A stretch of 64,000 bases of DNA, taken from NCBI GenBank assembly GCA_027487485.1, contig JAIYDN010000008.1, positions 1-64,000 on the forward strand. The letters run 5' to 3'. The position numbers were made by a program, and so were the translations under genes. Positions 1 through 40,530 of this stretch are shown piece by piece (the stretch's first letter is position 1; every line of letters begins with the position of its first letter). The notes under the pieces were generated by a model that worked only from the letters and a program-made list of their open reading frames with translations, had not been told where the DNA came from and made no database searches. The stretch is from Planctomycetaceae bacterium (GTDB lineage Bacteria > Planctomycetota > Planctomycetia > Pirellulales > Pirellulaceae).

Positions 1-470
1 AGCACCACCAAGAACCAGCCCAGTCACGTTGACTGTCTTGTTGTTCCCGACTCCGATATCCGCGAACGTTGCAGTGCCGCCCGTTAGCGTTACCACATCA
101 GGACCAATCACACCGCTCAAAGAACGGGTCGCAATGGTTGCTGCAGTCGTGTTATCAAACGGCTTATTGTTGACGGTAACGGTCGCAACCAAAGTTGCAC
201 GTTGCATCGTGAAAGCGGTCAAAGCCGACTGAGCCGCGTTGTTGTTCGAGTTGGCTGCCACGGAGGCTCGGACGTAGTACGTACCCGCATTCACCGGAGC
301 GGCAATTGCATTGGTTCCAGCCGCATCGCTGAAGTACGTGTACGTGATAGTTGGAACTGGTGTAGCACTGCCCGATAATGTCGCTGTCGCGGCGTAGGCG
401 GTTCGGTTGTAAGTACGGTTGCCAGACGTGATCGTCAGGGTTGGCGTGACCGCTACAGCGTTGATCGCAA
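1..470 (-). other. MBG/YDG-type modules at the window edge
   Basis: The last visible residues include YNRTAYAATATLSG, NAGTYYVRASV, then VNNKPFDNTTAATI and LTGGTATFADIGVGNNKTVN. These match the MBG and YDG adhesin modules common in large exoproteins, which usually occur in tandem. The gene therefore very likely continues well beyond base 1. Confidence 0.7.
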
Positions 471-3400
471 ACGTTACGCTACTTGCGTTGATTCCATCGT
501 TGGCGGTGATGGTCACCACTTGGTTGGCAACAACATCGGGTGGCGAGTAAGACCACGCCCAAGTCCCATTGCTGTTCTTCACTACCGCACCATGCGATGC
601 AGTCAAAACAACGCTGGCATTACTCGACTCGGGATCAACCCAGGTTCCTGAGTTGGTGAACGTTGATTGGACATTACCCGACACGGTTGCATTCGTTCGA
701 GTCATTATCACCGACTCGTTCACATCGGTGACATTCAAGATCAATGGCTTCGTGGTCGATAGCCCGCCCGAGTCGGTCGATCGCACTCGAACGGAGTACG
801 TGGGCTTGGCTTCGAAGTCCAGCACTTGACCTTGCCTAATAAAGATCTTGTCTCCCACAATGATGAACTTCGCATTGTCCGAATCGCCAGTGCCAGTGAC
901 CAAGTCATAAACGTACGAATCAACCGGATCAAGATCGACCGTTCCCATCTGGCCGAACAACATGTCCGCAGCTGTTGGTGTGTTCTCCAAAACAGTGTTC
1001 TGGTTGAGGGTGATGTCGGTTGGGTCACTGTTGATAACGTTGATCGATCCGTTCACAAAGCTGAAAGTGAACGGTGGCACATTCGTGTTGCCCGAAACGA
1101 TCAACGGCGTGACTCCAAAGGCTGCATCAGGTTTGACGACAAACGGAACATTCGCGATTACTCCCGCGGTGGAGGTCGATGGCGTAGCTCGATACAGGGC
1201 AATTCGAAGCTTGCCGGTTGTGTCTTCAACAAACGATTCGACAGTCCAACCACCCTCGGTCAAGAACATGCCGGCAAAGTTCACTCCGGCGGCATTGAAA
1301 CCATCTGCAAGGTCCAAAAGGTTGGTGTTGTAATCGATGAACACGTCCACCCCAAACAATCCCGCGGCATTATCTGTAATGCGAATCGGAACGTTGGCGG
1401 TTGCTCCGCGACGTGTTGGTACCAAGAGATCGGCTGCAATCGTCGGGTCCACTCCGGCAGGAATGATCAAGCCACCCGCTGGCAAGTTAGGAATCTCGGG
1501 TTGCGATGAGGGCGAAAGTCCCTTGCGTGCGATCCAGGACGAATCGAGCCCATCCAAGCCAGCATTCTGATTGACGTTGGCCACGATCGAAGGATCAGTC
1601 CAGCTATAGGCATCGAAGCCGGTGTAGGCCCCGACCACAACCCCCGCAACCCAGCCTGCATCTTGAGCCGTGTACAAACCATCGCCGTTCGTGTCGCCGA
1701 CGAAGACTGCTTTATGCAAGCCTGCATCCGCAATCGTTGGGATTGGTGTGCCTCCACCCGTCTCAGTGTAAACGTTCAGGTTCTCAACACGGACCATGTC
1801 CGAGGCACCGTAGGGAGTATTGGCTGGCACACTAGCAAGCAATCGGGTTACGATCTGTGGACCGGCTGGCAGTGGCGTCGTGCCGGACAAGGACAATCGC
1901 ATTCGCCCCGTTGAAACCAAATTCACCGTCGTCGACCACCCCGCTGGAAGCACACCAAAGAAGGTGCTCGACAGGTTCAGCATCGACGGGTTGTACGTGA
2001 TGTCGAAGTCCATGGCTAGGACTCCGGCACCATCGCTGATGGTAACCGGAATGCCAGGGTTACCATTGTCGAACGACAAGTTCACGTTCTGGCCTTCCGT
2101 ACTGGTCGCTCCCCGAGAAAAATCAGGAAGCGAGACCACGCGAGCGGTCGAGCTGACCACGCCAAAGGTGGTGACAAAGTGGCCGCCTGGCAGTCCATCG
2201 TTGTTGCCATCGAGCAATTCGCCCGTTGCATTCTTGAATCCATCCGCCCGACTGAAGAGAGTTGCAGTGTACGAATCCGAAGCCAGTGGCGTTCCGGACT
2301 TGATGAAAGTAAGCGTCTTCGAAGCCGCGTCCCACAAGATCGAGCCCTTCACCGGCCCTGTCGATGCACCCACGATCGTGATGTCGGTCGCGTCGATATT
2401 GGTATCCACCCCGTCGTAGACATTCAGAACCGATAGATCGAGAAGTGAGTTGAACTGGAACTTGACCGTGCTCGCAGTGACTTCTGTGCGAACGATCCCA
2501 ACCGTCTCCGCGACGTTGCTAACGGTGACCGGGAACGTTTGAAGCAGTTTAGAACCAGCGGCGTCAGTCACCTCAATGGTCACCAGCCGTGTTTCACCGA
2601 CAGTCAATCCTGTTCGGTCGTTAATGACCAATTGAGAACCTTGGATCGCAAAGGTGCTCAATCCAACAGGCAACAATGGTCCTTCGGCCACAATGGTATA
2701 GGTATGGCTATCGGCTAAATCGATATCAAGCGTGTTCAAGTTACCGACAACGTTGGACGTCGTCACTCGATTGCCAGTCAGTGTCACCCCAAGCGGAGCG
2801 TCGTTTCTGCCTTGAACCGTCACTGTAACCGTTGCGGTCGAAGTAGCACCTGCTGAATCGGTGATGGTGTAGGTGAAGCTATCGGTTCCTGTACCACCAA
2901 CATTCAAGTAATCGTAGGCTCCATTCGGATCGTAGTCGTACGAGCCGTCCGGTTGCACTGTCAGTAAAGCACCCGAAGTAAGCGTGAATTGCTTACCAAC
3001 GTTTGCGGAAACTCCGTTCACCGCTGTAACGACTCGCGTGTCACCTGAATCGACATCGGTGTCACCGACCAACAATCCGGTGGCAGCGTAATGCCGACCA
3101 ACTTGCGCCGCAGTCAGTGCCGTGTTGTACAAGGAAACTTCGTCCAGTGTGCCAGTAAAGTTGTGGCTGCTGGGTGTTGTCACAGTCGAGTTATGGAAGC
3201 GGGTTGTACTTGCACCACCCATCATGGCTGGCCCGTGAGAAGCAATGCCGCTGAAAGAAGTGTTATCGGCTGCGACTTCGACGCCGTTGACATAAAGCGT
3301 TGCTCTGCTCGCTCCAAAAACCGCCACAACATGGTAGGTCGTGTTGCCAGCTATACTGGCCTTCACCTCCGGGCCAAAAATATTTGCATTCCAGGTTCCG

Positions 3401-6400
3401 AAGTACAACTGCCCAGCATCAATGTAAAGATTAAGGCCGTTCGTTGTCCCACCTTGTTCATACAGAACTTGACGTGGCTGAACATTGGGCGCGTTGAACC
3501 AAAGTTCAATCGTTTTGGCGGTTGCACTGCCTGAATAGCTATTGATCAGCGTCGATGTGGCTACTGATATGGATTGAGTTCCATTGAACAATAGCCCAGT
3601 GTCTAGGGCATTCGCAAGCAACCCGGCAGCTGAATATTCAATAGTTCCGTTGATCGTGCCATCAGGAGTGCTTGGAGCCATTCGGTTGGCAGCCACAGTC
3701 CCCTCGGCCTCGCTTAGACGCCAGAAAGCGACTGGTGTGTCAGCAAGAATCGCATCGTCATAGTTGCCCGACGCGATTCTGATCACCGAGTCAGCGGTGA
3801 CGGTATTGGTATTGGTAACCGCATTCGGCGCGTCATTGACGCCGTTGATCGTAATCGTCAGGGACGATGGAACCGTTGCAACGCCATCCGAGAGGGTATA
3901 CGCGAACGACTCCGTGAGCGTTTGGCCAACCGCCAACTGCTGTATGGCAGGCAAACTGTTGTTCAACGTGTACGTGTATGTCCCGTTGGCATTCCATAAC
4001 AGAGAGCCGTACAGACCAGCGACAATAGTAGTCGCTCCGCCGTTAACCGAGACCACCGCAAGGATAGTGCCACTGTCAACATCGGAGTCGTTCGACAATA
4101 GGTTGCCAGTGATCTGTAGGTTGCCAGTGATCTGTACTGTCCAAGAGAGGCCGTTCAACAGCGTACCGTCAATCGAGCTTGGGCCGGAGCTTCTGACTGT
4201 TGTCCCTGATCCTTCATTGAGCCGCCAGTAACCAATTGCGTTTGTACCTGCAATGTTCCCGAAACGGATCTGAATTAGTTGGGTCGGGGTCAAAACGCCA
4301 CTCCATACACCAACGTCCGACATCATTCCATCGAAGTGCTCACCGAACGACGCGCTGCCAATCGTGAAGTTGCCGGATGTTGTGTTGGCTGGAGAAGTAC
4401 CCGAGACGGATCCGATGCTGACCCCGTTAACAAAGAACTCCACCGAATTATCGGACTTCATCGTGGCCGAAACGTGGTTCCACTGCCCAATTGAAAGCGA
4501 TGATGCAGTAATGTCGTAGTCAGCGATTCCGTAAGTCGTAAACCGGAGCCCTGCGCCGTTCAGTCCAAAGCCCCAGTTGCCGCCGGAAAAAATGCGGCGT
4601 GTGCCAGTCAGCACGTCTGGTCTAACCCAAGCCGCAATGGTTAGATTGTTGCGTAGCGATGTAAGAGACGGCACCAATCCCAAATCAATCTGATCGTTAA
4701 CTCCGTCGAAATTGAGAACAGTAGCCGTTGCATCTTCTGAAACGGCGTTGCTATCCGCAATCGCAATCGGCAAGTCATTGAGTCCAGGAACCACGATCGA
4801 CATTGTAGCCGTACTGGAAGCTCCCGACGAATCGGAGACGACGTAGGTAAAGGAATCTGTTGCAGTTAGACCAGCACGCAACGCGTTGATCGAACTAGAT
4901 GTGTTCGGATTGTAGGAGATGCTACCGTCTGCATTTCGGGTTAGCGTGGCACCCATGGTCGATACGGCTTGAACACTCGACACGATCAGGCTTGATTGAT
5001 CGACAGGACTTGGGTCAGTATCGTTGCTGGTAAATCGAACAGCCGGAATGACTACCGAGTTATTCTCGCCCAAGCTTGGGACACCAAATACGTCGATTTC
5101 GCGGTAACCAACGTAACCACTTTCAACCGAAGTAAACTCGAATCGAACAGCAGCAACTCGTGTGGCTAAAATACCGCTACCACCACTCACGTTGACGCGC
5201 GAGCTCGATGGTGTGTTCGCGGCGGGAACAAAATTGACGGTGGTCAATGTGATGAACACAGTCGGGTTGTCCACCGTCGAATACCTGAGAACATAGTTTT
5301 GGTTGTCGCGACCTGTGTCCCGCCAACCGGTGTACGTATCGATCGAGCTGATGTCATAACCTGACGGACTGTTAACGGTATCGAGATTGTATGTCCACTG
5401 GCGATTGTTGCTGGCCAGGACTGCGTCGGGATACGTACCAACCGTTCGAGCGATACCAAATGTGCCGTCGGTCAAGGTCAACGTGTTCGTTGAAGCTCCT
5501 TCGGCGGTATTTAGCGGCCCGCCTGTTACTACCGCAGCAATACCAGCCACAAGGTCTGTATTGGAAACCGTATAGGCTGTTGAAGCCGAATTCCCTGCAG
5601 TCGCCGGTGCGACAATCGCGGGCAAAGGAATCATATCGTCATTCGCGGTAGGAGCCGTATTGGCGATCACGATGGAGATTGGTTGGACACGCGAAGCACC
5701 TTGGTTGTCGGTCACGGTGAGTGTCCCAGTGTAAGCTCCATCTTGAGTAAACGTCTTCGTGACCGAGACTAAGCCAGCAACCACATTGCCAGTCGAGTTG
5801 GCAGACCCATCGCTCCACACGATCGAGAACGTATGCGTATCCGTGATACTTGGATCGGTCACAAGTGCCACAATCGTGACAGGCAAGTTCTCAGAGCCAA
5901 TAACATCATCCGCAACGATCACGGCGGGCGCATTGGCTACCGTAGAGTAAAGAGCATTAGCATTGCGTACGAAGCTAACGTTCGCAAATTGCCCAGAAGG
6001 ACTAGTGTAACTATCGGTGATCGTCGCGGTTACCTGATACTGACCGTCTGCATTGACACGAATACTCAACATTTGTGGGTCGTTGGTTGGGATAATGCTA
6101 AACGTGTTGGGTGTAACAGACCACACCACATTTCTCATGCCCAATTCATGAACCGCAGGTAGATTCCCAAGGGTGAATGTCACAACATCCCCTTCGACTT
6201 CGCTAATGTGATTGGCCCATCCAAGACCGTTCTGGAACGTGCCGTTGAGGACTGCGGTTCCCGAGCTTCCTACAGTGGAACCTACGCCTTCATTGAGCCG
6301 CCAGAACCCAATGGGACTTGTTCCCGAGATATCGCCCGAGCGGATTCGATCGAGAGTGGAAGTTGTTAAGGCAATAGGCCAGACACCGACATCCCGGATC

Positions 6401-9400
6401 ATCCCATCAAACGGATTGGCAGCGCCAAAGCTGCCGATCATGAAATTCGGATCGACATTGACGGAAGAAGCGGTTCCAGACACCACTCCGAGCGATCGTC
6501 CGTTGACAAAGAACTCGACGGAATTATCACTTTGACGGACGAAAGCTACGTGCGTCCAAACTCCACGTTGGAGCGCAGCGCCGGAGCTCAGTCGATTCGC
6601 CTGACCCAGCATGACCAGTTCAAGTTCGGTGCCATTTCGCCCGAATCGCCAAGTCTGTCCACCTATAATCCTGCCGAATCCAGTCGCTAGATCCGGCTTG
6701 ATCCAAGCAGCGAAAGTAAAGTTGTTCGTAAGTGCTGCAAGAGCTGACGAACTGATCGCGATCCGATCATTGACACCGTCAAAGTCGGGAGCCGTGATGT
6801 CATTTTCACTTTCGATGGTAACCACTCCAGCCGCAGCAATGTTGATTGTTGTACTGGTGGTATGACTCAGGGAATGGGTTGTCACGCCGTTATTTCGGAA
6901 GACATCTGTAACTATCAGGGTTGCTGTGTAATTCCCTGCGGATACCGGCACAAAGTTAACGTTTTCCGAGGTTCCGGTTGCGATGGTGGTAGTTCCCAAT
7001 TGAATCGTCCACTGATAGGTACGATTCACGGCAAAGGAAGTACCGATCAACCCGCCAGCGGGTGCGAGGGGACTTGAACTGCTCGAGTTAAAGGTTACGA
7101 CGGAGCCTGCTTGGGGAACCGTCGAAGGCCCGGAAATGACCGCGACAGGATTAACCGTGATCGTCTGCGAGAATGAAGTCGAACCGCCATCGTTATCGGT
7201 TGCCGTTAACGTGACCGAATAGACACCGGAATACTTAGGAGTAAAGCTAAAGTTAAACTGGTCCGAAGATAGAATTGCTTGTCCATTATTTGCAGACACT
7301 TCCCAAAGATAGGTTTCCGTGTCATTCACGCCTGCATCAGCGACATTGGTGGCGCTGAAGGTGATCTCTTTGTTGATCGCAAGGGGTAAGTTGCCTTGGT
7401 TGAGATTCGTAATCGTCGGATTCTGATTCACAACAGTAAAGCTTCTCTCGGCATTCGCCCCTGCCCCATCTTTGTCGACGGCTCGAACTAGCAGCTTGTA
7501 GATTCCGTTATCAGGTACCGTGTATTGAACTGGGAAGATCGAAGGTACTGTCGATGACCAAATCGGAGATGTGACCAAGCCGTCGAACCCGTAGACGCTG
7601 CTGTCGCGAGCGGTGCTGCCCGAGAGTTCATTCAGCTTCAGCCGCAACCGTAGATCACTGCTCGTTTCCGAGACGACATTGTTGCGGATCGCGCTGATCT
7701 GAGCCGTATCCAGGGCACGGCCAAACACCAAGAAGTCGTCCATGAACCCAACGAAAGCATTTTGGAAGCTGCCACCGACAGCCGCTTGATCTTGCCCCAG
7801 GATCAAGCCATTTCGGTCTATGTTGAGGGGCAACTGAGTTCCGGTCAAAGAACGCGTCCCTTGCGAGACCCCGTCCAAGAACAGTTCGACAACTCCGCGC
7901 TCGAGATCGCGAACGATTGCGACGTGATAGAACCGATCCACTAAGGCGGCCGTTGTCCAGGACAGCGCTGGTTGGTTGTGGACCTGGACGGTCCAAGTAT
8001 TCAATGTACTCAGTGATAGATTGAATTCATCGAGACGGGTTGCATTCGCCGCGTTGATCAGTGTTTGCAAGCCGGTCTTGGTGGTTCTTAGCCAAAACGC
8101 ACTGGTAAGATTCGTCGCTTGGTGAAGCGTTTCGCGAGGCAGGCTAATGTTGGTCGTGCCTGCATTTCCAAACTGAAGCGAACGTTGAGTTAGTTCAACC
8201 GATGTGCCATCTGGTTTTTCGATCGCGATCTGAACGTTCATTGCTGCAAGGTCCACGCTGCTTGGGTCTGCAATGATCAATTGGTCGACGGTTGCCCCAT
8301 CTACACGAACATCAAATAGGCCAGCGGACGCATTAGACACAAACGAAATCGTCTGTCCTTCGCGGACACCAGCCCCGGAGTTCGCAAGTCCCAAATTGGG
8401 AGTTTTGTAAATGCTTGGGGCGTCGTTTCGGAGGAAGAGTGGAAAGAACTGTCCCGCAAAGTTGGCGGTAAATACACCGTTATCGGATGACGCGACCGGG
8501 CCAAACGTTGCTCCGACGCCCATCGATAGGACCGTAGAGCCACTCGAAAAGAACCAAGGGAAAGATATTATTGCCGATGGGAAAGATGTCGACCAGCTTG
8601 CTCCAGACAGTGTTCCAACCAGTGTTGTAGAGCCATAGGTCGAGATTGTGTTGCCAGCTCCTTCATTCATTAACCAGTATGCAACTTGGTTATCCCGAAA
8701 GTTCCAAGTGTCTCCAAGGCGAATTGAGTTTATCTGGCTAGAATTGAGGGCCGCTTTCCAAACCCCAACTCCGTTAACATACCCCAGCTGATTACTGCCA
8801 ATTGAAACGTTAAAACCAGTGCGGGCTTCTGCCGGCAAAGAATGTGATTGGGCTCCCAACAAACCTCCATTACGGAAAAATTGCACGGAGTTATCCGTCA
8901 ACATCGATATAGCAAAATGATTCCAGCCACTCAGCTCTGTCCCAAGATACTGTTGGTATCGCTTGATCTCCGCCCCTGTCGACCCGTAGGTTTTAAAAAC
9001 AAGAAAAATATCCGTGTAATGAGTCGTAAATGGACGACGATTTTGGTCGAAGTATATTGCCAGCTCAAAATTTCCAGCAGAGAGAATTGTTGAATAACGA
9101 GTAATGCTCCCTAACGATGTGGGACTTTCGTAGTCTACCCATGCAGCGACAGAAAAGTTATTGGTAAGGCTTGAAATATCAGGGATATTGCCTAAGGCAA
9201 TACTTGGCGCACCCCCGAAGGAATTCGGAAAATAAACAGACGACCTCCTAATCGTGGGCGAGATGCTAACTTGACTTCCTTCTTCATAAACGAGATTGAT
9301 TCCCTGTAGCAAACCTGCGGTCGAAGGGAGTGTGAGATAAGTAAGATCTGGTAGCTTAGTAATAGTCGATGATGTTGAAGCCCCCATCGCGTTAACCCCG

Positions 9401-12400
9401 GTTCCCTCCAGTCGCAAGGACTGTAGCTTTGGCAATGAACCAAGTGCGGTGATATCCGTGACAGAGCTTTGATTGGTCAACGTCAAGCTTGTGAGGTTTG
9501 GGTTCCCAACCAATTCACCCGCCTGAGGTCCTGTAGTCAAACGACGTGGAACCAAGTTAGCCAAGTCGGCGTTGTCGATTCCAGCCGCAGCTGATGGCCT
9601 TGCCAGATTGAGTGACGTGAGATTGACCAGTTGCTCAACACCGGAAAGATCTGTAACGTTCCCATCAGCTTGGATCGATTGCACGTTGGCCAGTTGCGTC
9701 GCAGTAAAATCACGTAGAGCGACTCGCGTGGAAGTAAAATTCGCATCCGAAGAGTACTGTGGCTTGGAATTCGAACTGCTTGTACCAAGAACTCCGATCA
9801 GATTCGGATTCGCGACATTGTTGGCAATCCCACCAATTCCTTCATCGAACTTGAAGTATGCGATCAAGTCCGGACGGCTGGCAACGAATGCATCCGTAAG
9901 AGGCGCGTTATAGCGTGATGCGATTTCGGAAGCGGGTAGGGCGGTGTTCCAGACCCTGAAATCATTCATCTTTCCCTCAAAGCCGCCCAGCCATAGCTCT
10001 GCGTCTGTCGACGTGAACGAACTCGAACTATTCTTGGTTGCTTTCTCTTCCCCATTGACGTAGATCTTCATGAACCCACCGTTCGCAGCGCTGCTCACAA
10101 ACGCGAAGTGTGTCCACGTTCCAACGATTCTCGTCGGTGGAGTATAGGTAAGCCTACCTGTCAAGCTAATATTTCCGAAGTCCCAATAGATGTTTCCATC
10201 GGACCATGGAACATGCGCATTGATTCGATTCGTGGCGACATCGGGAATTGCTATGAATGCGCTTTGTTGATCTTCATCGTTATCTACCTTTTGCCAGTAT
10301 TCGATAGTGATTTCGGTCGAAATGTTACTTAAACCGAAAGCGGGAATTCGAATTCGGTCATTCACACCGTCAAAGTCCAAGGACCTGTCGCTCGTGACAA
10401 GCGTTGATGCTCCAGTTGCATCCGCGACTGCTAAGCTAAGAGTGTTGTCATTGAACTTGACGATCGGGTCTAAAACGGGAACTGTTGCACCGTAGCTCGT
10501 TTCGGTAACCGCTGTTGTGATTAATGGCAAGTCAGCCACATCTCGGTCCCGAACCTCAATCGGCTCACCCGTAAACGTATCCGAGCCGCTTTCACCGAAT
10601 AGGCGGTCAATTCCAAAATTGCCTGCGATCATGTCATCGCCGTCGCCACCATAGATGACGTCTCGATCAATCCATGACAAAGTCTCATGTGTTTGACCCG
10701 CAATCGGTGCATCCATAGAGATGGTAAATGCGTTCGAGCCGGAAAAGTTGCTTACCCCGGCAAACACAAGCCGTGCACCTGAAAATACAGCTTGGTCCGA
10801 ACCAATATCATCACCTGCCGAGGTCGATATCAGTGTCAGGTAGCGTGCATCCGAGGGTACAGTCACATTGTATTGATCAAGAGATGTGGATCGGGTCTCT
10901 GGAGCAGGTATCGTACCCGTAAAGGACCATACGCCATTCAAATCACTCATCGCAATCCGTTGCCCGTTGATGTACCCCGCAATGATGCCGCTATCATTGC
11001 TCACGATCACTGCTGTTCGGACGGACCCCGAACCGCTGTCATTCATACCAGCTCGATCTATGACAAATTGGTAGGATTGGTTAGGAGCCATTCCTCCTGC
11101 CGTCCGGATTTCATTCAGGTCAAATGTCAGTAGTCCGTTGGCATGCAATCCAATTCCATCCTCGGCCTTGGTCGTAGCATTACCGAAACTAACTAGACGA
11201 ACAGTACTGATGACAGGCTCGTTGACACGATCGCTCATGGTGTCGTTGGTCGGAGGGGACCACGACGCGTTCTGCCAACCGGTGTTGGTAAGATCGACGC
11301 GAACATTGTTAGCTGAATTTAGGAAAAGCGGTCCAGACCCTCCCTGAAGAACTTGATCAACCCCCAAGTCCGCCGCATCCGCAGAAGCCCTTAAGGTATC
11401 CGATGTTATCGCATTCCCAAGCGAGGATGTATTTGCATCATCAAACAAGTTCCCTAACGGAATTGAGGTCGCATTTTTTACTTTCAAGAAGTAGGTTCCG
11501 GCAGCCAACGTGCGCATATCGATGGCAGACCTGTCCGTGAGCAAAACGCGGCCTTTGTCGTCAATCAAATCCGTGACAAACGCGCCGTTAAGCCGGATCG
11601 CATTGCCTGCCTTGCCATCCCCCAGAGTAGTAAATCGGAACCAACGTTCTGATTGCCCCATTGGAATCGTAAAGGGCACCCCTCCGTTGTCAAAGATTTC
11701 ACTTGCGCCAGTCCCACGATCTTTGACAAACGATCCACTTCCAGGAACCGATGTGTTTTCCAAAACATCAAAGACGCTTGGTAAGTTGGCAGGGGATGCG
11801 GCCCCCGGAATAACGTAAACCCGCCCTGCGCCTCGAACGCCATCGTTTACCGTATTGTAACCTGCCGACACAACAAGATCGCTGATCCCATCATTATTGA
11901 CATCTATGTTAGAAGGGCTTTGAGGTGTTAATCGTTCGTCAAAAAACTTGACTCGACTGGGAAGTTTCGCCAATCTGCTTATGAAGTTGTAACCCATGAA
12001 TTCGAGCCTTGCGCCTGAGAAGACAGCCGTATCCTGGCCATTTCCGTCCCCTGCAGAAGTAGCAATCAGGCTCAAGTAGCGAGCTGTTGCAGGCAATGGA
12101 ATACTGAATCCGACCGGAGTTGTTGCGTTAGTCTGTGCGGCTGGAATGATTCCTGTAAACGACCAAGCTCCATTTGCAAGTTGCATCGACACTTGTTGTC
12201 CATTGATGTATCCCGCTATAACTCCGTTCTCGTTACTAACAATCACTAGGGTTCTTACGGAACCGTTGTAGCCATCATTTACTCCAGCTCGATCTACAAA
12301 AAACTGATTGATTTGGTTCTGTACAAAGTAACCCTTATCACGCAACTCGGTCAGGTCAAAAGTAAGCACACCATTAGCGTGCATTCCAATCCCATCCTCC

Positions 12401-15400
12401 ACTTTTGTGGAGGCGATGTTAAACCCTGGGGTCCGGACCGTACTGATTGCGAATTCGGTTGTAACCTGTGTGATTGCATCGTTAGTCGGAAGGGAATAAG
12501 AAGTACTTTGCCACCCAGTGTTAACCAAGTTGACTTGAACTTGATCGCCTGCATCCAAAAACAAAGTTGGGGCTCCACCTTGTATCACCTTGTTAATACC
12601 CAAATCCTCTGTACTCGCCGAGGCTCGAAATGTATCGGTGTAGACAGCGCCGTCAAGATCGCCTTTGTCTGGATCATCGAATAGATTACCCAAGGGAATA
12701 ATGCCGAGTGTTCTCAGGTTTCCAGGGACGTTTCTGCCGGTGGTATCCAAAACGTCTAAACCGTCCGCCTCTGCAAACTGGTACCAAGCATGCAGTCCAG
12801 TGTCCGCAATCGACACTCCCCTATCGCGAACTGCGGCTATCTCAGCAGCAGACAAGGCACGACTGTACACGCTGAAATCGGCAATCGTTCCTGTGAACGC
12901 GGTGGGACTATAAAAGCTACCGCCTACACTTCCTTGGTCGGGTCCGAGCATTAAACCGCCAGCGTCAATCGCAATTGGTACAACCGGAATGCTGACTGTG
13001 CCCATCAAGACGCCGTCCAAGTAAATGGATGCAGTATCCTCCGCATCCTGCGTCGTAACGGCTAAGTGATGCAAAAGTCCATCTGCAATGTAAGGAATGC
13101 GAACAGATCTCGCTTGATCCCGAATCGTAATCCAAACGTAGTAACCATCAAAAACTCCTCTAGCGTCACTATTCCTGATCGAGATTTGGAATTCATCGAT
13201 CGCGTTCGGGGTACCTGCCCGGAGGCCGTTGAGCAAGATCGTTGTGTCAGGCTTTAAGGTGCTAAACCATAGCGAAGTCGTGCTGTTTCCCAAACCATTG
13301 TAAACCGATGTAGGCAGTACCAGTGCATTCTGAGTCCCATCAATGGCAAGCCCGGAAATAGGTCGATCTACACCCGAAACAGGTATAGTGCGATCGGCTT
13401 GGGCAAAGCTCATCCCTGTGCCCGAACTTTGGCTTCCCACATCTGAAAAGAGAACTGTCGATCGAGGTTCCACGTTACGTTTAGCAGAACCGATCTCCAA
13501 CCGCGCGCCCGAGAAGACACCGTGATCGTTGTAGTTGATGTTGGTGCTGCCCTGAGTGACGGCAAGTGTCAGGAACCTAGCTGAGGTAGGAATAGTGATG
13601 TCGAAGGAACGAAACGCATCATAAGAACTAACGGATGTCAATTGTGATGGCAATGATCCGATGAAAGAAGAACTAGTTCCTGAAGCTACCTGAACTTGCT
13701 CGCCATTGACATAGCCTGCAAGTACGCCAGCAGTAGAGCTGAACAACACAACAACATTGAGCGAGGCAAATGGGTTGTTGAAACTACTGTCATTGATCCC
13801 AGCGCGTTCCGATACGAAGCGCAACACGTCCTTAGGTGCAAGGCCGCTTGCCGTCCGAATTTCATTCAAATCAAAAGTTACAGCTTGATTGGCATGCATG
13901 CCAATGCCTTCTTCGATTTCCGCATTTCCCTGAATCGGTCTTCCCCGCGTTTGTATCCCTCGGGTGCTAGCTTGGTCACTGGAATTGTTAAAGGTCGCAT
14001 CGTTTGCTGCCGTACCATAGCTGTTGTCGGCCCAGCCCAGGTTGGTAAAGTCAAAATTGACAGACCCGTTGATAGAAAACTTAGCAGGCCCGCCCCCCTG
14101 AACCCGGGCAACTCCTAGGTCGCTGGTGTCAGCAGTCGCATTGAAAGTATCCGTAAACAACGCCGTTGGAATCGTTGCTGTCTTGGCGTCATCAAACAGG
14201 TTTCCAAGAGGAATGCTTGTGGGTATGCGCCCCGTAAGTGAGATGTCATTAAGTCCATTGCCGTTATAGTCCCCAGCGGTTGCAGAAAGATCGCTTCCCC
14301 AAATGGTCAGATCGGGAGTCTGAAAAATACTTCTGATGGTTGTCGAGCCATGGTATACCTGCAGACCATTCGGGCCGATGAACCCCACATCAGCCAAACC
14401 ATCTTTGTTCAAGTCTCCCAACGCAACTGGTTCGAACGATTGGAAGTTATTGGTTTGTACAGTAATACGCAGGTTATTGCCGCCACCTATCTGCTGCAGT
14501 TGCGAAATGATGGGTACCGTTTGTGAAAGCGATGGTAGCAAAGACTCCGTACCCGAGACAGACGGTGTACTCACGGTTGTAAAGACAAGTCCCCACGATT
14601 GCAGAAAGCCGCTGTCAGCATCCGCGAGGTCATTAATCTCTAGAGTCCAAGTCCCGCTGGGAGACTTGCCAGCCAAGCTACCCAGCGAGCCTGTAGGTCG
14701 GAATCGACCCGTGAATGGCGGACTACCCGATGCAATGGATTGTGCCGCTTGGGCGTCGAAGATGGTACCGGTGAAGTTGTCTCCAGACCCTCCAACACGA
14801 CTGAACAACTCCACCCGTGTCCCATCGGGGCCAACAAGGAAAGCCGACAAATCCCCGGTATACGTATGCGTCAATGTTAGATTTACATCAATATCGAAAA
14901 TCTGACCAATCGCATTAAATGCCAAGGAACGACGAACTTGACTTCCTGCGTTGGGACCGATGGGAATCGATAGTCCCGTTTCTTGAACGACTGGGGCTGT
15001 CGTGATGATAGGAGTAAATCCTATCTGCAAACCGGTTGCCAATCCATTGACCGTCTCGACAACGGTTAGCTTGACATCGCTTCCACCGCGAACAGTCACG
15101 ATCTCGACTCGTGTATTATCCGAATTGGGACGAGCAACAACCTGACCTCGCAGACTCGACAGATCGATTTGTCGATTGATCTCATTAATGGTGTTGGTTA
15201 GGACGCTGCCGGTTTTGGAGTCGACTCGAACGAGATACTGGACGGTCAAAGAATTCAGAGAAATCTGTAACGTAGAAGTTTGTCCCGCTGAAAAATTGGG
15301 GGGGGAAGTTGCGGTAAATACGGCCGGGTTCACACTATGAACTTGCACAGAAGCGTTGGGATTGCCAAGCAACAAGTCATCAAGTCCATCTCCGTTTACA

Positions 15401-18400
15401 TCCCCGGCTCCAATGGTTTGGATAGAAATGGGATTGGAAGGAACTGTAAAGGCAACATCGGGCCCTGCCACAAAGCTGCTGGAGATTTCACCAGATGTTA
15501 AGACGCGATTGTACAAACGGAACTCGTTGTACGACGCGTTGGCTGTATCGTCGCTCCCCTTTGACCTACCTAACCAATTATTTGTTTGAGTTATGTTTGC
15601 TAGAGTGTTCGTCGTGTCGAACACACCTGTCTGGACACCATTCAAGTAGACGGTGATGCGTGTATTATTGTTCGGAGCCCCGCCGTCCTGAATGATGAAT
15701 GCAAAGTGATATTCAACACCAAGCTGTAGATTTGGCAGAAGGGTATTATTGCCACCCAGGCCAAATCCAACGCCCCCCAGATTGTTGCCACCATTGCTTC
15801 GCCAAAATGCATAAAGTGAATCACTCTGGCTCGTTCCAAAATCAAAAATTCTCGTTATAAGACCGTTGCCAAAGCTATGTCGAGTTGCCCAGATTTCTAT
15901 GGTTGCAGAGCTTAGACCAGACAATAGATTGTCAGGAAGCTTAATGTATTCTGAATCTGCTTTCGTACCCCCAGTTAAACGGACCGTCGAACCATTGAGC
16001 GATGAATTGACCGTGGCAGGTATTGGATCCTCTAGCGTTGCACTTGTGCCCCCCATGGAATCGGCAAACGTATTGCCAGACGTCTCGTTGAAGCTGTAGC
16101 GGCGCGTCAGAGATTGAGCAATCGTCGCAGGCTGAGCAAACTCGATTGACGCAATGGAGTCGATCGCCGTCATTGCCGGATAAGGAGTCGTCGCCGTAAA
16201 AGCGCTAATGTCGCTTCCGGAGAAAACATAGCCCAATTGCGAGCGTCCAGAAACAATGGTCTCTGCTCCAAAGGTCGAATCCGAACTGACAACCAAATCC
16301 TCACGACGATCTCCAGTCATGTCTTGAACTAAAACAGAAATGCCCCCTACGGGTGAGAAAAGGCTACGTGGCAGCGTGATCTTTCGCGCGTTTCGATCGG
16401 TACCGGTCGTGGAAAGGAAAGTATCAACAAAGGATTGATTCCATTCTCGCGGCCATGGCATCGCTGTCTTGCCGGTCTTGCCACCCATAACCACAGTAAA
16501 CGAATAATCGTTCCCAACAAGCTTGGAGAAAACAAGGTCGGCCGCGCCGTCGGCATTGAAGTCCCCAAATTCATTCGATGGTGTTCCCAATGCGGCGTGA
16601 TCGATAATGATGTCTGCAACATCTGCGACATTCTCAAATTTTGTTTGACTCGTCGGGCCAAATATCAAAAAGCTACGGGTCGCACCGGTAGCAATGAAAT
16701 CGGAACTTCCATCGAGATTGAAGTCCCCAATGGGTCGAAGAGACGAAAGAATTTCGTTGGGCTGGGCGCCATAAAGTCCCTGATCCGGGGAAACCGGTTC
16801 ACTTACATCCAAATAGGGCTTCGCCAATGCATACTCGAATCGTTCCAACGCAAAGCCGCCCGAAGGGAAGTTGGATGGTCGGGGTGGATTGTACGGGAAT
16901 GCTGTTGAGGCACCCGTTGTTGGTTGCAGACCAAAAACTTGATCAGCTCCACCGTCCCCATAAAGTTTATCGTTACCTGTTGAGCCAACGATGTAATCGT
17001 CTCCAGCCCCACCGCGGATCGTGTCGGCAATCGGTCCACCAAAAAGAAAATCGTTACCATCGCCACCCAATATCACTAACGATGTCTCGCTGGCCCCCTG
17101 TTCGAAATCCCCGAGATCAAGTCCCCATTCTTCGTTGAACTCAGGAGATGTCGTACCAGAAATCGGCGAAACGATGAATTGACTGTCGGTGCGAACGACG
17201 TCGTTTCCAGCTTGAGTATTGAACTGTGTCTCTTCAATATTGTTCGTCTGATAGAAGAGGTATTCCTGTTCGTAACTTACACGTCCTCCCGTCGTGGTCG
17301 TGCGATACGCTTGAGTACCGATGTCCCAAACGAAGCTCATGAATTCATATCTATGAAGTCCAGTGTTGTAGCGTAGCGTTGCGTAATCCGGAACATCGAA
17401 GCCGCGTCGATCTGTGTCCCCGCCAAGGTAGACAACGCGATCGCTCCCTTGACCGCCATCCATGCGGTCGTTCTGAGTGGTGACATAAGTCTGCGTTGCC
17501 GGATTGAAGACCGTATTGCTTTGGTTGGCTAGCAACGGCAAGGCATCGGGAATGATTTGGAACGTATCGTCCCCAGTGCCACCGAACAGCAAATCGCTTG
17601 CGCCGCGATCCTTGCCACCGGTCAATACGTCGTTGCCATCGCCACCAAAAATCCAGTCTTCCCCTGCACCGCCGCGTAGAATATCGTTCCCAGCTCCGCC
17701 CAAGATCACATCGCGACGTTCCGAGTCCTTGCGTAACGAAAGATTAACCTTCGGTATCGCAGCAAGTTCATTCGCATTGTTGGTCCCCGTCAAGTTGAAA
17801 CGAAGGTCGTAGATCGTTGGCACTATGTTCGGACTGGATACTCGAAGAAGATACGTTTTTCCGGTCACTAGATTTGCGAGCGAAATAGTGCTGGACGTTC
17901 CAACTGGCGGTGATTGTGGATTGAGCTTGCTGCCGACCGGCAGGCCGTTGGAGCCTCGCTCGTACAGTTCTAGTGCCAAACCATCGATGGGGGAGGCACT
18001 GGCCAATTGTATTATCGCACTCGAAAAGGCATTCGTTGCCAACGAGAATGAATACCAATCCACATCTGTCGGGCTGTCGATTGTCAAGCCGTTAAACTCC
18101 AAGCCGTTCGCTGACACGGTCGTGCCGTCGAACGCCTTTAGCACCGAGTTCACGGGTCGCATCAACTCAAATGACTGAGTGGCGATGTCATTGCGGCTGA
18201 TCGTGCCGTTTGCACTAACTGCACGCTCCGACTTGTCGACCAAGATTGAGTTTCCGCTGCGCACATCGACGACATCGTCCCCTGCTCCTGCGTCAATCCA
18301 TACCGTTTTTTGCACTGTGGGGCCAACGGTGATGATGTCGTTGCCACCCAAAGCATCGATCAGGATCACCAAGAAGTCTCCTTCGGGTGGAATGAGACTC

Positions 18401-21400
18401 GATAGCAATGCCGTTTCTTGAGTGGCTTTCGCGTCGGCGTTGGTGATCTTGGTCAGCGAACCTGCACGCGCATCTTCGTCTGTGTCAGAAAGCAATTGAT
18501 CGAGTCTAAACTGAACCCCTTCGCTGCTCCAGATCTTGTTCCCGTCGCCGTCCGTTGCATCAAAGTCGAGACGAACTTGAGCAGCAAAGCTAAAGTTACC
18601 ATTGTTGTTCGTTAGACGCGTCACCAAATGGTGATCGGTCAAAAGCCCCGGCTCGGTGACAAAGTTCACATCGATTTGATCGGCTGCGTTGGAACCGCCA
18701 ATGTACCAGACTTGATCCGATTCACGTGCGTATTGTTTCCATTCATCGCCTGCAATACCACCGTCCATCGATTCCATCGTGGTGCCGTTGCTTCGGTATA
18801 GTACGTCATTACCACCGTTTCCGTACATGAAGTCTACGACTGTTCCGCCGTACAAATTGTCATTGCCCTCGCTACCGAGCATTCGGTTCAGACCGGTCAC
18901 CTCGAGTGAGTACGGTAACCGTTTAGCGCCACTAGTTAGATTGTCATCCAGATCGAGCGAACCGTCGTCGTTGAGATCGCCGTCGTTTGCAAAGAGATTA
19001 CCTTGTGGGTCTACAAAAATACCAAATTGGTCGTCGATCCCGCTTGCGGTCGAACGAACGGTCGATGGGTCAAAGCTCCATGCATAGAGCTTGTTCCTTC
19101 CCATACCACCAATCAAATCATCGTTCCCCTGGCCAGCGTACAGTTCGTCGTTATCCGCTGTCGAACCGTTGGCAATGTCACCCCATAGACGGTCATCACC
19201 CGCAAAACCAAACAATCGGTCGCTTCCGATTCCACCGTCAAGCTGATCACGCCCAGCCGAACCAAGCAAAATGTCATTTCCGCTGTTGCCGTCGAAGACA
19301 CCGACGTTGTCTCGCGAACGCGCCGACAAACTGGATGTGTCAAAAGACGTGAAGCCGTTAGGTAGGGTAACACCAGTCAATGCGCCCGATTGGATGGCTT
19401 CGTTGCTATAGAATCCAATCGTATCGTTTCCAGCTAAGCCAGCGATACGGAATTGTTCGATCAGCGGCTTGCCATTGGCGTCGGTCATGACGACTGGAAT
19501 AGCGTTGTTCCCCACCAAAACGGAAGCGTTTCCATTGCGTTGGCCGATCAGAATCGTGTCGTTACCAGTCGTTCCGTTGATCACGAGAATGTCGGTCGCA
19601 TTGTCATCTGCAATATCGCTGAGGGTCGTATTCCCGTAGTGACCATCGATGGTATCCGAGATCGCGGGTTCATCTGTCCGGAAGATGAACAGATCGATAC
19701 CGCTTCCACCGTACTGTTTATCGGAACCCGCTTGACCATCGATCAGGTCGGTGCCACTGCCGCCCCAAATGGTGTCGTCACCACCGCCGCCGTAAAGTTG
19801 GTCTTCACCGCTGCCACCAATGAGAACGTCGGCTGCGCCGTTTTTGTCCGCCGTGGTCAGCACACCCGGCGACGCAAAAACCCCTGCCAAGTTATGCGGC
19901 AGATAGGTCGCTCCCACAAACTCATCCCCGACGATGAACTCGTTACCGGCATCCCCGCTGAGTACTTCTCTGCGGATGTTTCCGTGAATGTAGTCGCCGT
20001 CGTCGCCACCAAAAATCTGATCACCGGCCAAAAGCAACTGAGCATTGAATTGGCTAAAATTGGTGACAGTTGGTGCGAAGGCATACATGGTGTCGCGGCC
20101 CGCGCCGCCGTAGAGACGTTGTCCCGCTTGTCGGCCAGTAGAATCTCCGGCTTCGCCAAACATCGTGTCATCGCCATCGTCGCCGTACAAGTTGTCGATT
20201 CCGCTACCACCTTTGATCACATCGTCTCCGGCACCGCCACGTACAACATCGTCTCCGTCGCCACCATCGAGTTGAACGTCGTTCCCAGCCCCCGCGTCGA
20301 GATAGTCGACGCCAGCTCCCCCTGCAAGCACATCGACATCCGTTCCGCCAAACATCACGTCGTTTCCATCGCCGCCACTGAGACTATCACGGCCATCTTG
20401 ATCCACCCCATCGACCGTCAGTCCACCAGTGATGGCAGGTGTGATTCGAATCAATGGAACGTACCTGTCGGCCGCAACCTCAGCTCGTCCGAACGCAGTA
20501 ATGCCGGAAGAGTAAAGTGCTTCGGTTTCTGCGTAATTGGGCGGAAGAACGAAATCGGTTGTGTTTTGGCGATAGTTGGTTCTGATTCCAACCGCTGATC
20601 CGCCAAACATTACGTCATTGCCGTTGCCACCATCCAGGATGTCGTCCCCGCGAAGCCCGACCAAGAAGTCGTCGCCGTCTTCGCCGTTGAGTCGATCGAG
20701 TCCGCTGCCTCCCCACACTTCGTCGTTGCCAGCCCCTGCGCTAACCACATTGTCTCCTTCGCCGGTGTAGATAAAATCCGATCCCCCCAGCGTGACCACC
20801 GAATCGTTACCATCCGTATTGGATGGAGCAAGCTGTGACGAGACCGGTGCACCGTTGACGAAAACGATCGAGCCATCATCCGCAAGAATATAGTTATTGC
20901 CCGCACCAGCCTGGATCACATCGGATTTTCCACCCGCAACAACCACGTCATCGCCAGATCCGGTAGTGATCGAATCGACGCCGCTCAACACCGAGCCGAA
21001 ACTTTCAACGCGGATTGGAATTCCGTTGGAGAACTGAATGGTTCCCCGATCGCCGACGACAATGTTTCTACCATTGCCGGTTACAACGGTATCGTTGCCA
21101 TTGCCAGCAATAACATTGTCATTACCGCCGCCGAGTGTGATCATGTCGTTGCCGTCAGCATTGCTGATCAGGCCTTGCATCGAAGTCACCAACCCACCGC
21201 TGATCGACAGCAATGCCAAGTCGCCGGAAACAAAGTTGTTTCCTTCACCAGCGACAACCGTATCGTTACCTAAACCTGCAAGGATGTAATTGTTCCCGTT
21301 GCCAGCCGTGATTGAATCGTTGCCCGCAAAGGTAGAAAGCAAACGAATCGACGAGATGACGAAGTTATTGGCGGTGACTTCAGCCGAATCACCAATCAAG

Positions 21401-24400
21401 ACATCATCCCCATCCATGCCGGAAATGATGTCCGCACCGTTCATACCAAGGATGCGATTGGAAACACTACTGCCCGTGATCGTATCTGCAGCCGACCCGC
21501 CCGTAACGTCTTCAATACCCGCAATCGTGCCAATATTGTTTGCGCCTGTATTCAAATTAACATTGATCGACGATGACCAAGTGGAATAGTCGATGAAATC
21601 TCGTGCACCCGCTCCGCCGTCGGTCAAGCCTGTTAGCCCCACCCCCGGAGTCATGGCAAAAACGTCGTCGCCGGAACCTGTTGCAACATTCTCGATCGAT
21701 GTGAAACCGATAAGACCTGTCAAGCCGCGTAAAGCTGCCCCAGCATTTGTTGCATTGACATTCACTCGTAAAGAAGCGGTCTGCCCAGACATGTCGAGAC
21801 TGTCGGAGTCGACCCGGCCTGGCGTGACCGTTCCAATCAGATTTCCGGTCAATCGTCCAGATGCTGGAACGATAAATCGGTCGTTGCTGTTGCCGCCCGT
21901 TAGGTTCTCAAAGCTCTCGAAAGCAAAGGGAACACTCGATCCCGAGTCAAGAATGCTACCACCGTTAAGGCCCGATATCGTCCAGTCGGCATTCACATTG
22001 CGACCTACCAACAAGTCATTTCCGCTCGAACCGCCACGCACGAGATCGATATTTTCAAAACGACCACCAATGCGGTTGGCAGTTTTCATTTCGCGGTTGA
22101 TCGTTACGACCGAAGAAGCACCGAATGCCGAGTAGTCCAACGCATCCAAGCCGCCTGCTCCATCGATCACCCCCGCGATGAAATCGGTTGGATCCAAGAT
22201 GAATCGGTCTTCTTGAGCGCCACCCGTCAAGTTCTCGATTGCTTGGAAGTGGAAGGCTCCGTTAATACTGCCTCGGTTCGTTCCGGTGATCGACCATGTG
22301 TTGACCGTATTGCTTCCGACCAGACCACTTACGGTTAACGAATCACTTCCCGACCCGCCTACGATTGTTTCGATGCCTTGAACCCCAAGAGCACGATTGG
22401 ATCCACTGGTAACGGAAATCGAGCCTGCCAGCGAAACACCAAGTCCCGACGTCACACCACTGAAGTCAAACAAGTCGCCGAGTTCCGCAGGAGTGGTTCC
22501 ACCACTTGCTTCCGTGATCGAATCCGTTCCCCAATTGTTGGCGAAAACGTAGCGATCTCTCCCTGCTCCGCCAGCGATCGTGTCGTCGCCATCGCCGCCA
22601 ACCAGCACATCGTCTCCTGAACCCCCAGTCAGCGTGTCGTGCCCTGCCCCACCATAAAGCATGACTGGTACAGTGACACTTTCATCCACGGTGATCTTGT
22701 CATTACCGCTTCCGCCGGTAAACAAAATGCGATTCACGCCGGTGTAAGTTCGAACAGTAGTGTCGTCGTCACCATCGCGATTCTTGTACTTGAACGTAAC
22801 CTGAATCGCATCACGATTCTGATCGTCCTTGAACTGCCTCACACCGAACTCTTCGTTTTCGTCCGTGCCATAGAGAGTACCGCGTGGGCCTGCGTTCTCG
22901 CCGGCGTAAAGCTTGAGTGTTCCATCCGAGGATACTTCAGCCAGCCCTGGTGCAACGCATGAGTGATTGAACTCAAAGAGTTTGAATTCGGCGATCGTGA
23001 AACTATCGCCGCCGAACAGCCAAACATCGTAGTACGCTCGAATGAACGCAGTGATCGAACCATGGGCATCGAATATACATGATCCATTCGGCGCACCGTT
23101 GTCGGGCGTTGGCCGCAAATAGAACAAGTCTCTCAGTTCATCGAGATAAATCTTGCCGTCTTTATCGAGGTCGTTCCAATTGAACCCAAGGTCTGCTCTC
23201 ACGCCACCTTCGATCCCCGCTTGGACGAAGTACAAATCAAGCACCGCTCCGACGGATGCCTCTAGACTAATGCCGAACTCGTCGATGTCCCTTCCGCTGG
23301 TGACGTTGGCGAGGTCGCCGAAATAGAAGCCATCAACGAAGTTGCCGGTCTTGGCGATACCACGTGTGTCAAAGCCCACCGAGAAATCCGCGAAAGCATT
23401 TAGCTTCGCGTTGAACGTTGCATACAAGGGAACTGGTGGGAACGGAATGGGCCCAAACCGCATGCTAAACGGAACATTCAGATCCAGCTTCGGAATACTC
23501 CACTGTACGATGTCAGCCTTCTCGCCAGTGAACAGCTTGAAGATGTTCGAAGGCTCGGTAATCAGCGGGATCTTGATTCCAAATCCTCCCTTGCCATTCG
23601 AGTCCGCTGCACCAGACAATTTGCCGAGCAACGATTTGGTTTTTCCGGCTCCGGCTTTGCCCGAGCTTCCAACTTTGTTGCCGATTGAATTCGGATCGTT
23701 GGGGTTGCTCGAGATTGCTCCATCCAGCGAGTTGGTTTTGACTTGAACCGGCGTGTTCTTGTTGGTCAAGTCGGTTGGCGTGCCGACCAACGCACCTGTG
23801 CTAGGATTGACCGGGTCGGTCGTTGTGTACGCAGCAGTGATCGTGCCTGTAGGTATGGTATTGAAGACAATCTTGGTCTTGTTAACGCCAGCATCTTTGT
23901 AACGAACAACCTTGTAGGTGTTGGACGACATCTCGCTGCCATTACTGAACACACGAACGCGGCTACCGGCCTTCGCACTGGAAGGTAGGATGCGTTCCAG
24001 GCCCGTACCCGTGGTAGCGATACCTGTGAGCGCAGTCGGCTTGCCGGTTACATAGTAGGTTCCGAAGTTAATAACGATCGAATCCCCATCGCGCACGGCT
24101 TCGTCGAATGAATCCATGAACTTGAAAATTTCTTGCATCAAGCCGATCACTTGCTGGGCCTTGCGAGCCGCGTTCCTAGTCTTCTCGTTGGCGGATGCAC
24201 CAATCATGCCAAGCGAGACGAACGTAATTTCGGGACCGCTCAACAATTGCGATAGATCGTTTAAACCTGGCACAGGCGAAGCTAAAAAGTCAATCAACGG
24301 ACGAATTGGGCCCAAGTAGGTCTTGAGAGACTCAAACACAGGGCGAACGACCGTGGTCAAAAAGCTGCCCATATCGAGATTGACGTCCCGAATCGCTATG

Positions 24401-35421: not shown

Positions 35422-35665
35422 AGTGCTCACCCAAATGAATTCGAGGTAATGATGGGGCAGAGACGACCGAACTTGGTGTTTAAAAAGTCACTCTTAAGCG
35501 GGCTGTCCCGAAATCTACTGCATTGAGAAAATGCGGATCAGATTCCCCCATACTTTACACATCTGCGCACCAACCTCTTTTGTGACGAAATTTTTCCGAA
35601 AGATTCGGCCTTTCGCTAAAGTTTCATTCGCCTCGCGATTCCTCAATGGGGTGGAAGCTGATAGA

Positions 35666-35861: not shown

Positions 35862-36149
35862 AGAGTAAAACGCAAAGGCTATATCTGCGCATCAAACAAG
35901 AGTGTGACCGAAATTTCTGAAAAGATTTCGAAATAAGCAACAGCTAAGCGAAGGCTTGAAGAACGATGAAACGGAATCGCTTGGCAACAGCAACTGCAAC
36001 CAGCTATATTAGGTCGCAGTGTGTGGTATCATCTGAGTTGACAGCCATGGTGCGTGTGCTTCACGAGTTCCTTGCTGTTAGATTTGCACTTCCTTCCTCT
36101 TGGTCACAAGAGCGGCATCCCCCAGCAAGTCCCACCGACGAATCGTAAT

Positions 36150-36776
36150 ATGGATCCAACTGACGAGAGTTTACTTCGGCTTGCTACCATGGGAGACGCC
36201 GCTGCTTTTGGAGTCCTGTTCGATCGATATTCTCCAAAGCTTAGAAGATTGGTTGCCAAGCAGTTAGACCCTCGCCTGTATACGCGGATTGACGTCTCAG
36301 ATGTCATCCAAGAAGTGCATATTGAGCTATCGAAGCGGATCGCCGAGTTTTCAGAAGAACGAGCGGTAACGCTGTACCACTGGATGTGTTTTATGACCAA
36401 GCAGAAGGTGGCGGAACTCGAACGTCATCACATGTTCACGCAGATTCGCGACGTGCGACGCGAGATTCCACTGCATCGCTTTTCTTCTTCCAATTCGTCG
36501 ATTGTCCTAGCGGCTCATTTGGTATCTCAAGTAAGCAGTCCAAGTTCTGTCATTCGCAAAGAAGAAGTCGCGGGCTTGGTGAGTCAGGCCATCGAAAAGC
36601 TCGACCCAGACGGACGCGATGCGATCGTCTGTCGCCATGTAAGTCAACTCAAGACAGCCGAGGCGGCTGAGTTGCTGGGGATCACCGATGCCGCATTCCG
36701 ACAACGCTATTTTCGCGCTCTCAAGCAATTGCGGAAGCTACTACATGAATGCGATTTGAGCTGGAGCGACTTATGA
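36150..36776 (+). CDS. ECF-type RNA polymerase sigma factor
   Basis: A 208-residue protein starting [20 protein letters not shown]. Region 2 is visible as [16 protein letters not shown] and [17 protein letters not shown], and region 4 as [20 protein letters not shown] followed by [13 protein letters not shown]. The spacer holds a Ser-rich stretch. I chose the ATG at 36150 because residues upstream of it in the same frame (from 36054) do not look like sigma-factor sequence and would extend the protein beyond the usual length. It belongs to the planctomycete ECF group linked to Ser/Thr kinases. No anti-sigma gene is present; the neighbouring kinases probably take that regulatory role (inference). 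The stop overlaps the start of the next gene as ATGA. Confidence 0.88.
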
Positions 36777-40432: not shown

Positions 40433-40433
40433 C

Positions 40434-40507
40434 TTGAACCGCAGGCGCTAGCCGCGACCACATATCCAGCCCAATGAAACTCGACGCGGCTAGCGCCAGC
40501 GGCTCAA
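40434..40507. repeat. Interspersed inverted repeat between the two kinase genes (copy 1)
   Basis: A 23-bp left arm (40434-40456, TTGAACCGCAGG...) and a 23-bp right arm (40485-40507, ending CCAGCGGCTCAA) are near-perfect inverted complements around GGCGCTAGCCGCG. The loop is 28 bases. The element begins one base after the WD40 kinase stop. A second copy of the right arm lies at 45020-45042. It would form a strong intercistronic mRNA hairpin. Confidence 0.85.
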
Positions 40508-40530
40508 AAAAAGTAAAAGAAGATACCGCA

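Follow-up and report, generated by a model that had tools for sequence, protein, structure and literature searches.

How long is the gene that opens contig JAIYDN010000008.1 of a Planctomycetaceae bacterium (assembly GCA_027487485.1), is it a single gene, and what might a protein of such size do? These questions are raised by bases 1 to 64,000 of this contig (the window; contig C41 of 124,033 bp, in a genome of 7.49 Mb and 114 contigs), in which one minus-strand open reading frame fills the first 35.4 kb. C numbers denote contigs, G numbers the compared genomes (G000 being the source genome), and L numbers the fetched loci. Read from a GTG at 35430, the frame has 11,810 codons down to base 1; read from the ATG at 35421, it has 11,807 codons (1,233 kDa, three Cys). 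The window contains 0 N and has a G+C content of 52%, at which a frame of such length is not chance. Contig C41 ends at base 1, and the giant gene is therefore cut by the assembly, with its 3' end open. The locus is probably one intact gene for a giant planctomycete surface protein of ~12,160 to 12,205 residues, truncated by the assembly.

A preliminary description of this DNA had claimed a frame of at least 11,807 codons, free of stops and frameshifts and still open at base 1. The codon count from the ATG proved exact, translation of the full frame and the open reading frame list gave 0 stops, the codon-position pattern described below agreed with an uninterrupted frame, and extension to the left of base 1 ended where contig C41 stops.

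Genes of >5 kb are regarded as giant, as cited in PMC5177795 (here and below, statements on published work refer to the accessible parts of the cited texts), and the window gene lies well above this threshold at ≥35.4 kb. The largest planctomycete gene of a 2016 survey measured 36,239 bp (PMC5177795), and huge proteins, in which Dockerin_1 is enriched, are a recognised planctomycete feature (PMC11573180). Thus, length alone (~36.5 kb) is not new.

Conservation of the frame

In every aligned block printed, against G107, G102, G169, and the in-genome paralogue on C67, codon position 3 differed most and position 2 least. The blocks together span about residues 9 to 10,880 and 10,949 to 11,810, with gaps. 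Because the pattern was present in all of them, the frame looks selected along its length, and there was no sign of a frameshift.

In relatives from other genera, the N-terminal half is kept in unchanged order and in a single frame, some of the contigs measuring 1.8 and 8.5 Mb. Between stops, their frames comprise 9,894 (G170), 11,073 (G169), and 12,028 codons (G212), and 10,070, 10,209, and 9,175 codons for three copies in G157. Residues 1 to 6000 are 29 to 64% identical to these copies; the match extends over nearly all of this part in G169, G212, and the first copy of G157, and lacks about residues 600 to 1,600 in the other three. Same-genus fragments in G102 and G107 are 54 to 81% identical to the window protein. 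Past residue 6,500 the matches, which reach residue 10,880 in G169 and 10,970 in G212, become patchier, and their order is kept only partly because repeated LamG modules match one another. The three G157 giants stand in a row within 97 kb (G157:C5:134317-231325, L095-L100).

Among 241 genomes of the family, 57, the source genome being one of them, matched the N-terminal 597 residues at 1e-5, many solely via an insert around residues 243 to 370; residues 1560 to 2300 were matched at 1e-10 in 7 of 246 order-sampled genomes, again counting the source genome. When the first 600 residues served as a protein query, eight proteins of 6,132 to 7,986 aa were recovered among 446 scored candidates, one of them named LEPR-XLL domain-containing protein (Stieleria sp., P0001). 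The nearest named relative, 62% identical over the first 597 residues, belongs to a metagenome-assembled genome of an uncultured Pirellula sp. (CAIXME010000602.1) and identifies the host as a planctomycete; it was the sole locus returned when GTDB species were scanned with one genome each, a set that may have excluded the source genome and others very close to it. The window protein is part of a conserved but little-described family.

The missing C terminus

The last 900 bases of the gene resemble 18 other sites in the genome at 68 to 78%, and 16 of these sites lie within ~700 bases of a contig end. None comes near 100%, so that the continuation of the gene was not identifiable by overlap. A 1,155-base cassette taken from the intact gene on C49 matched 18 sites, itself included, at 78 to 100%, with 15 of the 18 at a contig end or at most 5 bases from it. 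The copies are pairwise 77.6 to 97.4% identical and differ mostly at third positions. Eight contig ends run out inside the YDG domain or the cassette (C41, C67, C63 right, C52, C12 left, C50, C80, and C48 right), and eight begin inside it and hold a stop (the left ends of C36, C63, C49, C82, C75, and C48 and the right ends of C31 and C92); with an extra 77-base match at the C12 right end and weaker end matches on C101, C9, C84, C114, C77, and C55, these equal counts prove nothing. We infer that the assembly broke here because short reads were unable to cross the cassette copies. As contigs break in these similar copies, draft genomes can understate how many giant genes there are and how long they run.

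It had been claimed that the chain ends in modules that usually come in tandem. The intact copies do not show this: on both C49 (frame of 4,472 codons) and C102 (1,872 codons), the YDG domain leads into one cassette and a stop, with no long tandem array. Beyond the point at which the window ends, 375 residues follow to the stop in C49 and 352 in C102: first a domain that starts with NRQVFYNNSGFE (in C102, NRRVFYNDSGFE), then a dockerin, followed by a Gly-rich linker and an acidic-hydrophobic tail. With 211 residues before the dockerin in C49 and 141 to 186 residues from dockerin to stop in 11 copies, 352 to 397 residues would be missing, which gives ~12,160 to 12,205 aa and a gene of 36.5 to 36.6 kb. 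One sequence pattern, drawn up for the C-terminal tails after they had been seen, matched 10 of 24 tails, several of them related by descent, compared to 601 of 20,000 internal 25-mers; it missed 14 tails and was not relied on.

A C-terminal cassette shared by different giants

Giants of this genome that otherwise differ have their C-terminal cassette in common. At the threshold used, DNA alignment between the window and the C67 giant was limited to two blocks in the last 2.2 kb (75% and 78%). The two proteins are 76 to 82% identical in the shared C-terminal stretch and 25 to 60% identical, or unmatched, elsewhere. Two neighbouring G157 giants are 95.5% identical in DNA over their last 2.6 kb, compared to 66 to 76% in the listed blocks before it.

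Of the 27 genomes of the genus, 15, including the source genome, matched the cassette protein. When 37 cassettes were placed in a tree, nine of the ten copies used from this genome formed one clade (100/99), with the three copies of G101 as its sister; the tenth, from C33, fell outside on a long branch. Eight shorter pieces of this genome (the left ends of C63, C49, C82, and C75, and C50, C80, C31, and C92) were left out of the tree, as were two of the nine G107 copies, all three of G099, and the single copies of G084 and G085. Strict clustering of cassettes by genome was rejected as a rule: it holds for this genome, G101 (3/3), and G105 (2/2) and fails for G107, G102, G100, and G096, with the cassettes of G107 and G096 intermixing. 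C-terminal recombination or gene conversion would be the simplest reading of the cassette sharing.

Cohesins and a possible scaffolding role

The preliminary description had placed hydrolase, RTX, lectin-like, cohesin/dockerin, and cadherin folds on one chain. Hydrolase, RTX, lectin-like (LamG/pentraxin), cohesin, and cadherin-like modules were recovered, whereas a dockerin was not found inside the frame: the genome has 38 Dockerin_1 matches, all of them on other contigs. Judged by the paralogues, a dockerin would be expected in the missing C terminus. Six cohesin matches occur in the genome, two each on C41, C67, and C33. The C67 locus (G000:C67:20921-55366, L103-L104) is a second giant, a frame of 11,482 codons, likewise open where its contig ends, with two cohesin matches and an N-terminal part largely different from that of the window protein. 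On C33 (G000:C33:1-3233, L105), the contig start truncates a frame of 1,077 codons that encodes two cohesins and one dockerin.

The main task of the protein might be that of a scaffoldin, holding dockerin-bearing partners via its two cohesins. A planctosome with cohesin, dockerin, and P-domains has been proposed for lake planctomycetes (PMC6461901), and its large proteins resemble the window protein in these modules; the planctosome anchor differs in having 2,210 aa, a lamin-tail domain, and a 26-aa signal peptide, and neither a lipase-fold head nor RTX is mentioned in the accessible text. This proposal, the restriction of cohesin matches to just three contigs compared to 38 dockerin matches genome-wide, and the presence of a dockerin in the shared C-terminal cassettes are consistent with a scaffoldin. 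However, cohesin 1 scores under the cut-off, and the cohesins are two small modules on a 12,000-aa chain, so that scaffolding is possible but rather unlikely as the main task.

N terminus and hydrolase-fold head

The basic N terminus resembles the planctomycete export motif RRLxxExLExRxLLA (PMC8567305): FEALEKREVMTAG holds LExR but not LLA, and most relatives hold LExRxLLA. Behind it lies a predicted alpha/beta-hydrolase head in which the catalytic triad (Ser176, Asp501, and His540, numbered from the ATG) is intact in the sequence and alignment. The best matches of the predicted fold were lysosomal phospholipase A2 (PLA2G15) and LCAT, at 17% identity over 293 to 299 residues. These enzymes share the fold and the Ser-Asp-His triad with the window head but, at ~370 to 380 residues, are not giant, and the extra insert belongs to the window head. 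The Stieleria protein P0001 (6,282 aa, partial), known from a partial database entry alone, shares 49% identity with 40% of the head query and also has Pfam DUF7379 and RTX.

Among the 14 aligned heads that reach that part, the insert is present in the window and L115 alone. Mycobacteriophage Bxb1 gp23, whose repeats the insert resembles, is a tail-tip protein; the module also matches many other frames of the family, and same-genus frames of 11,775 and 11,906 codons (L158-L159, G105:C43:18001-52000; G095:C43) match the head insert alone.

The nucleophile column holds Ser in nine of 15 aligned heads and Gly in six, and the Asp and His of the triad are kept in all 14 heads that reach them. At least four changes of nucleophile state fall on the head tree, one of them separating the window, with Ser, from G102, its nearest relative, with Gly. 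The tree was built without the nucleophile column, and the direction of the Ser/Gly change is not readable from it; the two states cluster on it no better than in shuffles. The full-triad head of the window species may cut lipids, and a binding or structural role is more likely for the Gly-nucleophile heads of its relatives.

Could the protein then be a secreted or surface phospholipase used in feeding on or attacking other cells, with the remaining chain serving delivery and adhesion? The phospholipase A2/LCAT fold with its intact triad and the RTX and sugar-binding-type modules on the chain would suit such an enzyme, but Gly at the nucleophile in six of 15 heads and the repeated changes on the tree suggest that activity is dispensable in the family, and this explanation seems unlikely. 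An assembly or sequencing artefact, with several genes fused or frameshifts masked, is highly improbable, for although the draft is often broken in repeats and match order is only partly kept beyond ~residue 6,500, the order and single frame of residues 1 to 6000 in other genera, the reach of the G169 and G212 matches, and the persistent codon-position pattern all argue against it.

A probable giant surface protein

The preferred reading remains a single giant gene for a protein that is probably surface-exposed and of a known kind, the giant planctomycete surface proteins with an LExR-type N terminus. Such a protein would be exported through this N terminus; its RTX part would fold and stiffen on calcium outside the cell, the LamG, pentraxin, and NPCBM modules would provide adhesion, and anchoring or sorting could fall to the common cassette at the C terminus, with its dockerin, Gly linker, and acidic tail. 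The chain would then be a long surface adhesin or scaffold bearing a lipase-fold head, active in this species if the triad works.

Several observations weigh against this reading. The window motif ends in VMTA rather than LLA, and a LEPR-XLL match was absent in an NCBIfam scan of the N terminus. The Pfam score of the head is weak (DUF7379, 30.1 bits compared to a 33-bit cut-off), and the model of the conserved core, made for one 741-aa piece, is poor, with a predicted local distance difference test score (pLDDT) of 69 and a predicted template-modelling score (pTM) of 0.52. The Gly nucleophiles, found in the nearest relative as well, make catalysis unlikely as the family's only role. Finally, the missing length is estimated from paralogues.

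Giant genes described from Fuerstia marisgermanicae, Gimesia maris, and other planctomycetes (PMC5177795, PMC5352709) are alike in size (~36 kb), phylum, and predicted adhesion or carbohydrate-binding roles; a lipase-fold head, a shared C-terminal cassette, and kinase linkage are not mentioned in the accessible parts of these papers. Giant1-5 of Apilactobacillus kunkeei (PMC12863079) are likewise clustered giant surface proteins, with a similar C-terminal domain on all five and intragenic recombination. They differ in belonging to lactic acid bacteria and in having beta-solenoid and helical repeats, an SH3b-like C terminus, and 3,000 to 8,000 aa.

Divergent kinase genes near giant genes

Both kinases encoded beside the giant gene are Ser/Thr kinases. 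A divergent kinase gene lies within ~2 kb of the start in five of nine giants (C41, C63, C67, the C50 left end, and C8), with one gene between giant and kinase on C41 and C63, and is absent near the start in the other four (C3, C15, and two adjacent giants on C50, one lying 5' of the other). The nine, not a full census, are those frames from the genome searches that have 4,000 codons or more and a readable 5' flank; C49, whose 5' flank is another giant's end and whose kinase neighbour is downstream, and C59, whose start was not seen, were excluded. The genome has 74 kinase matches in ~70 genes, and the binomial chance of five in nine is 2e-5 to 2e-4 in a post hoc test (68 kinase genes in 7.49 Mb, windows of 5 to 8 kb).

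A kinase also adjoins the start in four of seven copies in relatives (G102, G170, G216 copy a, and the first G157 copy). It was not found for G169 and G212, where the nearest frames were searched by Pfam and the rest by a crude motif, or for G216 copy b, searched by the crude motif. The other two G157 copies and G012, whose flank is too short, stand outside these seven. A literature search, with most subscription papers and bioRxiv preprints outside its coverage, gave no title on giant genes beside kinases, and the words giant, adjacent, neighbor, upstream, and surface protein are absent from PMC11032199. For Rhodopirellula, regulation of a giant gene by an adjacent hypothetical protein has been suggested (PMC2754498). 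The divergent kinase and sigma-factor genes beside the window's giant gene may control the expression of that gene.

The Ser/Gly nucleophile changes, the shared C-terminal cassette, and the kinase genes near the 5' ends of giants go beyond the preliminary description. Joined together, they could describe a Pirellulaceae surface system of giants sharing one exchangeable, genome-specific C-terminal dock and controlled by divergent Ser/Thr kinases. Of the three loci found to bear cohesins, the window gene and C67 would form the hub for dockerin-ended giants, and the phospholipase-fold head would be an evolutionary switch from enzyme to binder, the catalytic Ser coming and going while Asp and His stay. 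As a whole, this composite is quite doubtful.

Giant proteins are common in planctomycetes, yet their roles are predicted only in the accessible parts of the cited papers. The family offers several handles for tests: a head of known fold whose active site varies naturally among relatives, a shared cassette as candidate anchor, cohesin/dockerin pairs, and a recurrent kinase neighbour as candidate regulator.

Other features of the window

Table 1. Features of the giant gene and its divergent neighbours, in window coordinates
Feature	Position	Strand	Basis or remark
Giant open reading frame	1..35421	-	11,807 codons from ATG (11,810 from GTG at 35430); 3' end cut by contig end
Basic N terminus with LExR-type motif (FEALEKREVMTAG)	35299..35421	-	Sequence; resembles export motif RRLxxExLExRxLLA
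Alpha/beta-hydrolase head, lysosomal phospholipase A2/LCAT fold	33652..35301 (limits approximate)	-	Predicted fold, alignment
Head insert, similar to mycobacteriophage Bxb1 gp23 repeats	34324..34659 (approximate)	-	Sequence similarity
Conserved core, ~3,500 aa	22882..33633	-	Almost without Pfam match; two E1_FCCH stretches, best 26419-26631
RTX region	16852..22839 (limits approximate)	-	HemolysinCabind, E 8.7e-81, 13 stretches
LamG_3 domain	15481..15954	-	Profile search; best of two stretches in that third of the protein
Proprotein convertase P-domain	14581..14895	-	Profile search
NPCBM-like domain	12004..12423	-	Family passes; no single stretch below 0.001
Pentraxin/LamG domain	7681..8133	-	Profile search
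PKD domain	5683..5931	-	Profile search
Big_9/cadherin-like domain	4795..5070	-	Profile search; best of three stretches
LamG_3 domain	4279..4704	-	Profile search; best of six stretches
Cohesin-like domain 1	1780..2064	-	23.2 bits, just below 24.1-bit cut-off
Cohesin domain 2	1075..1410	-	32.5 bits (cut-off 24.1)
3' stretch common to C67 paralogue (two DNA blocks, 75% and 78%), last part also to other giants of the genome	1..2160	-	DNA/protein alignment
YDG domain	1..195	-	Cut by contig end at position 73 of 85 of the model
Divergent neighbours	36054..43902	+	Sigma-70-family factor 36054-36776; protein kinase + WD40 36749-40432; protein kinase + TPR 40474-43902

A FliD/flagellin-like fold was considered for the conserved core and rejected, the best match (Helicobacter pylori FliD, E 2.5e-5, template-modelling [TM] score 0.11 on the query) being too weak. 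The RTX region contains calcium-binding nonapeptide repeats, with 26 motif matches between residues 4236 and 6137.
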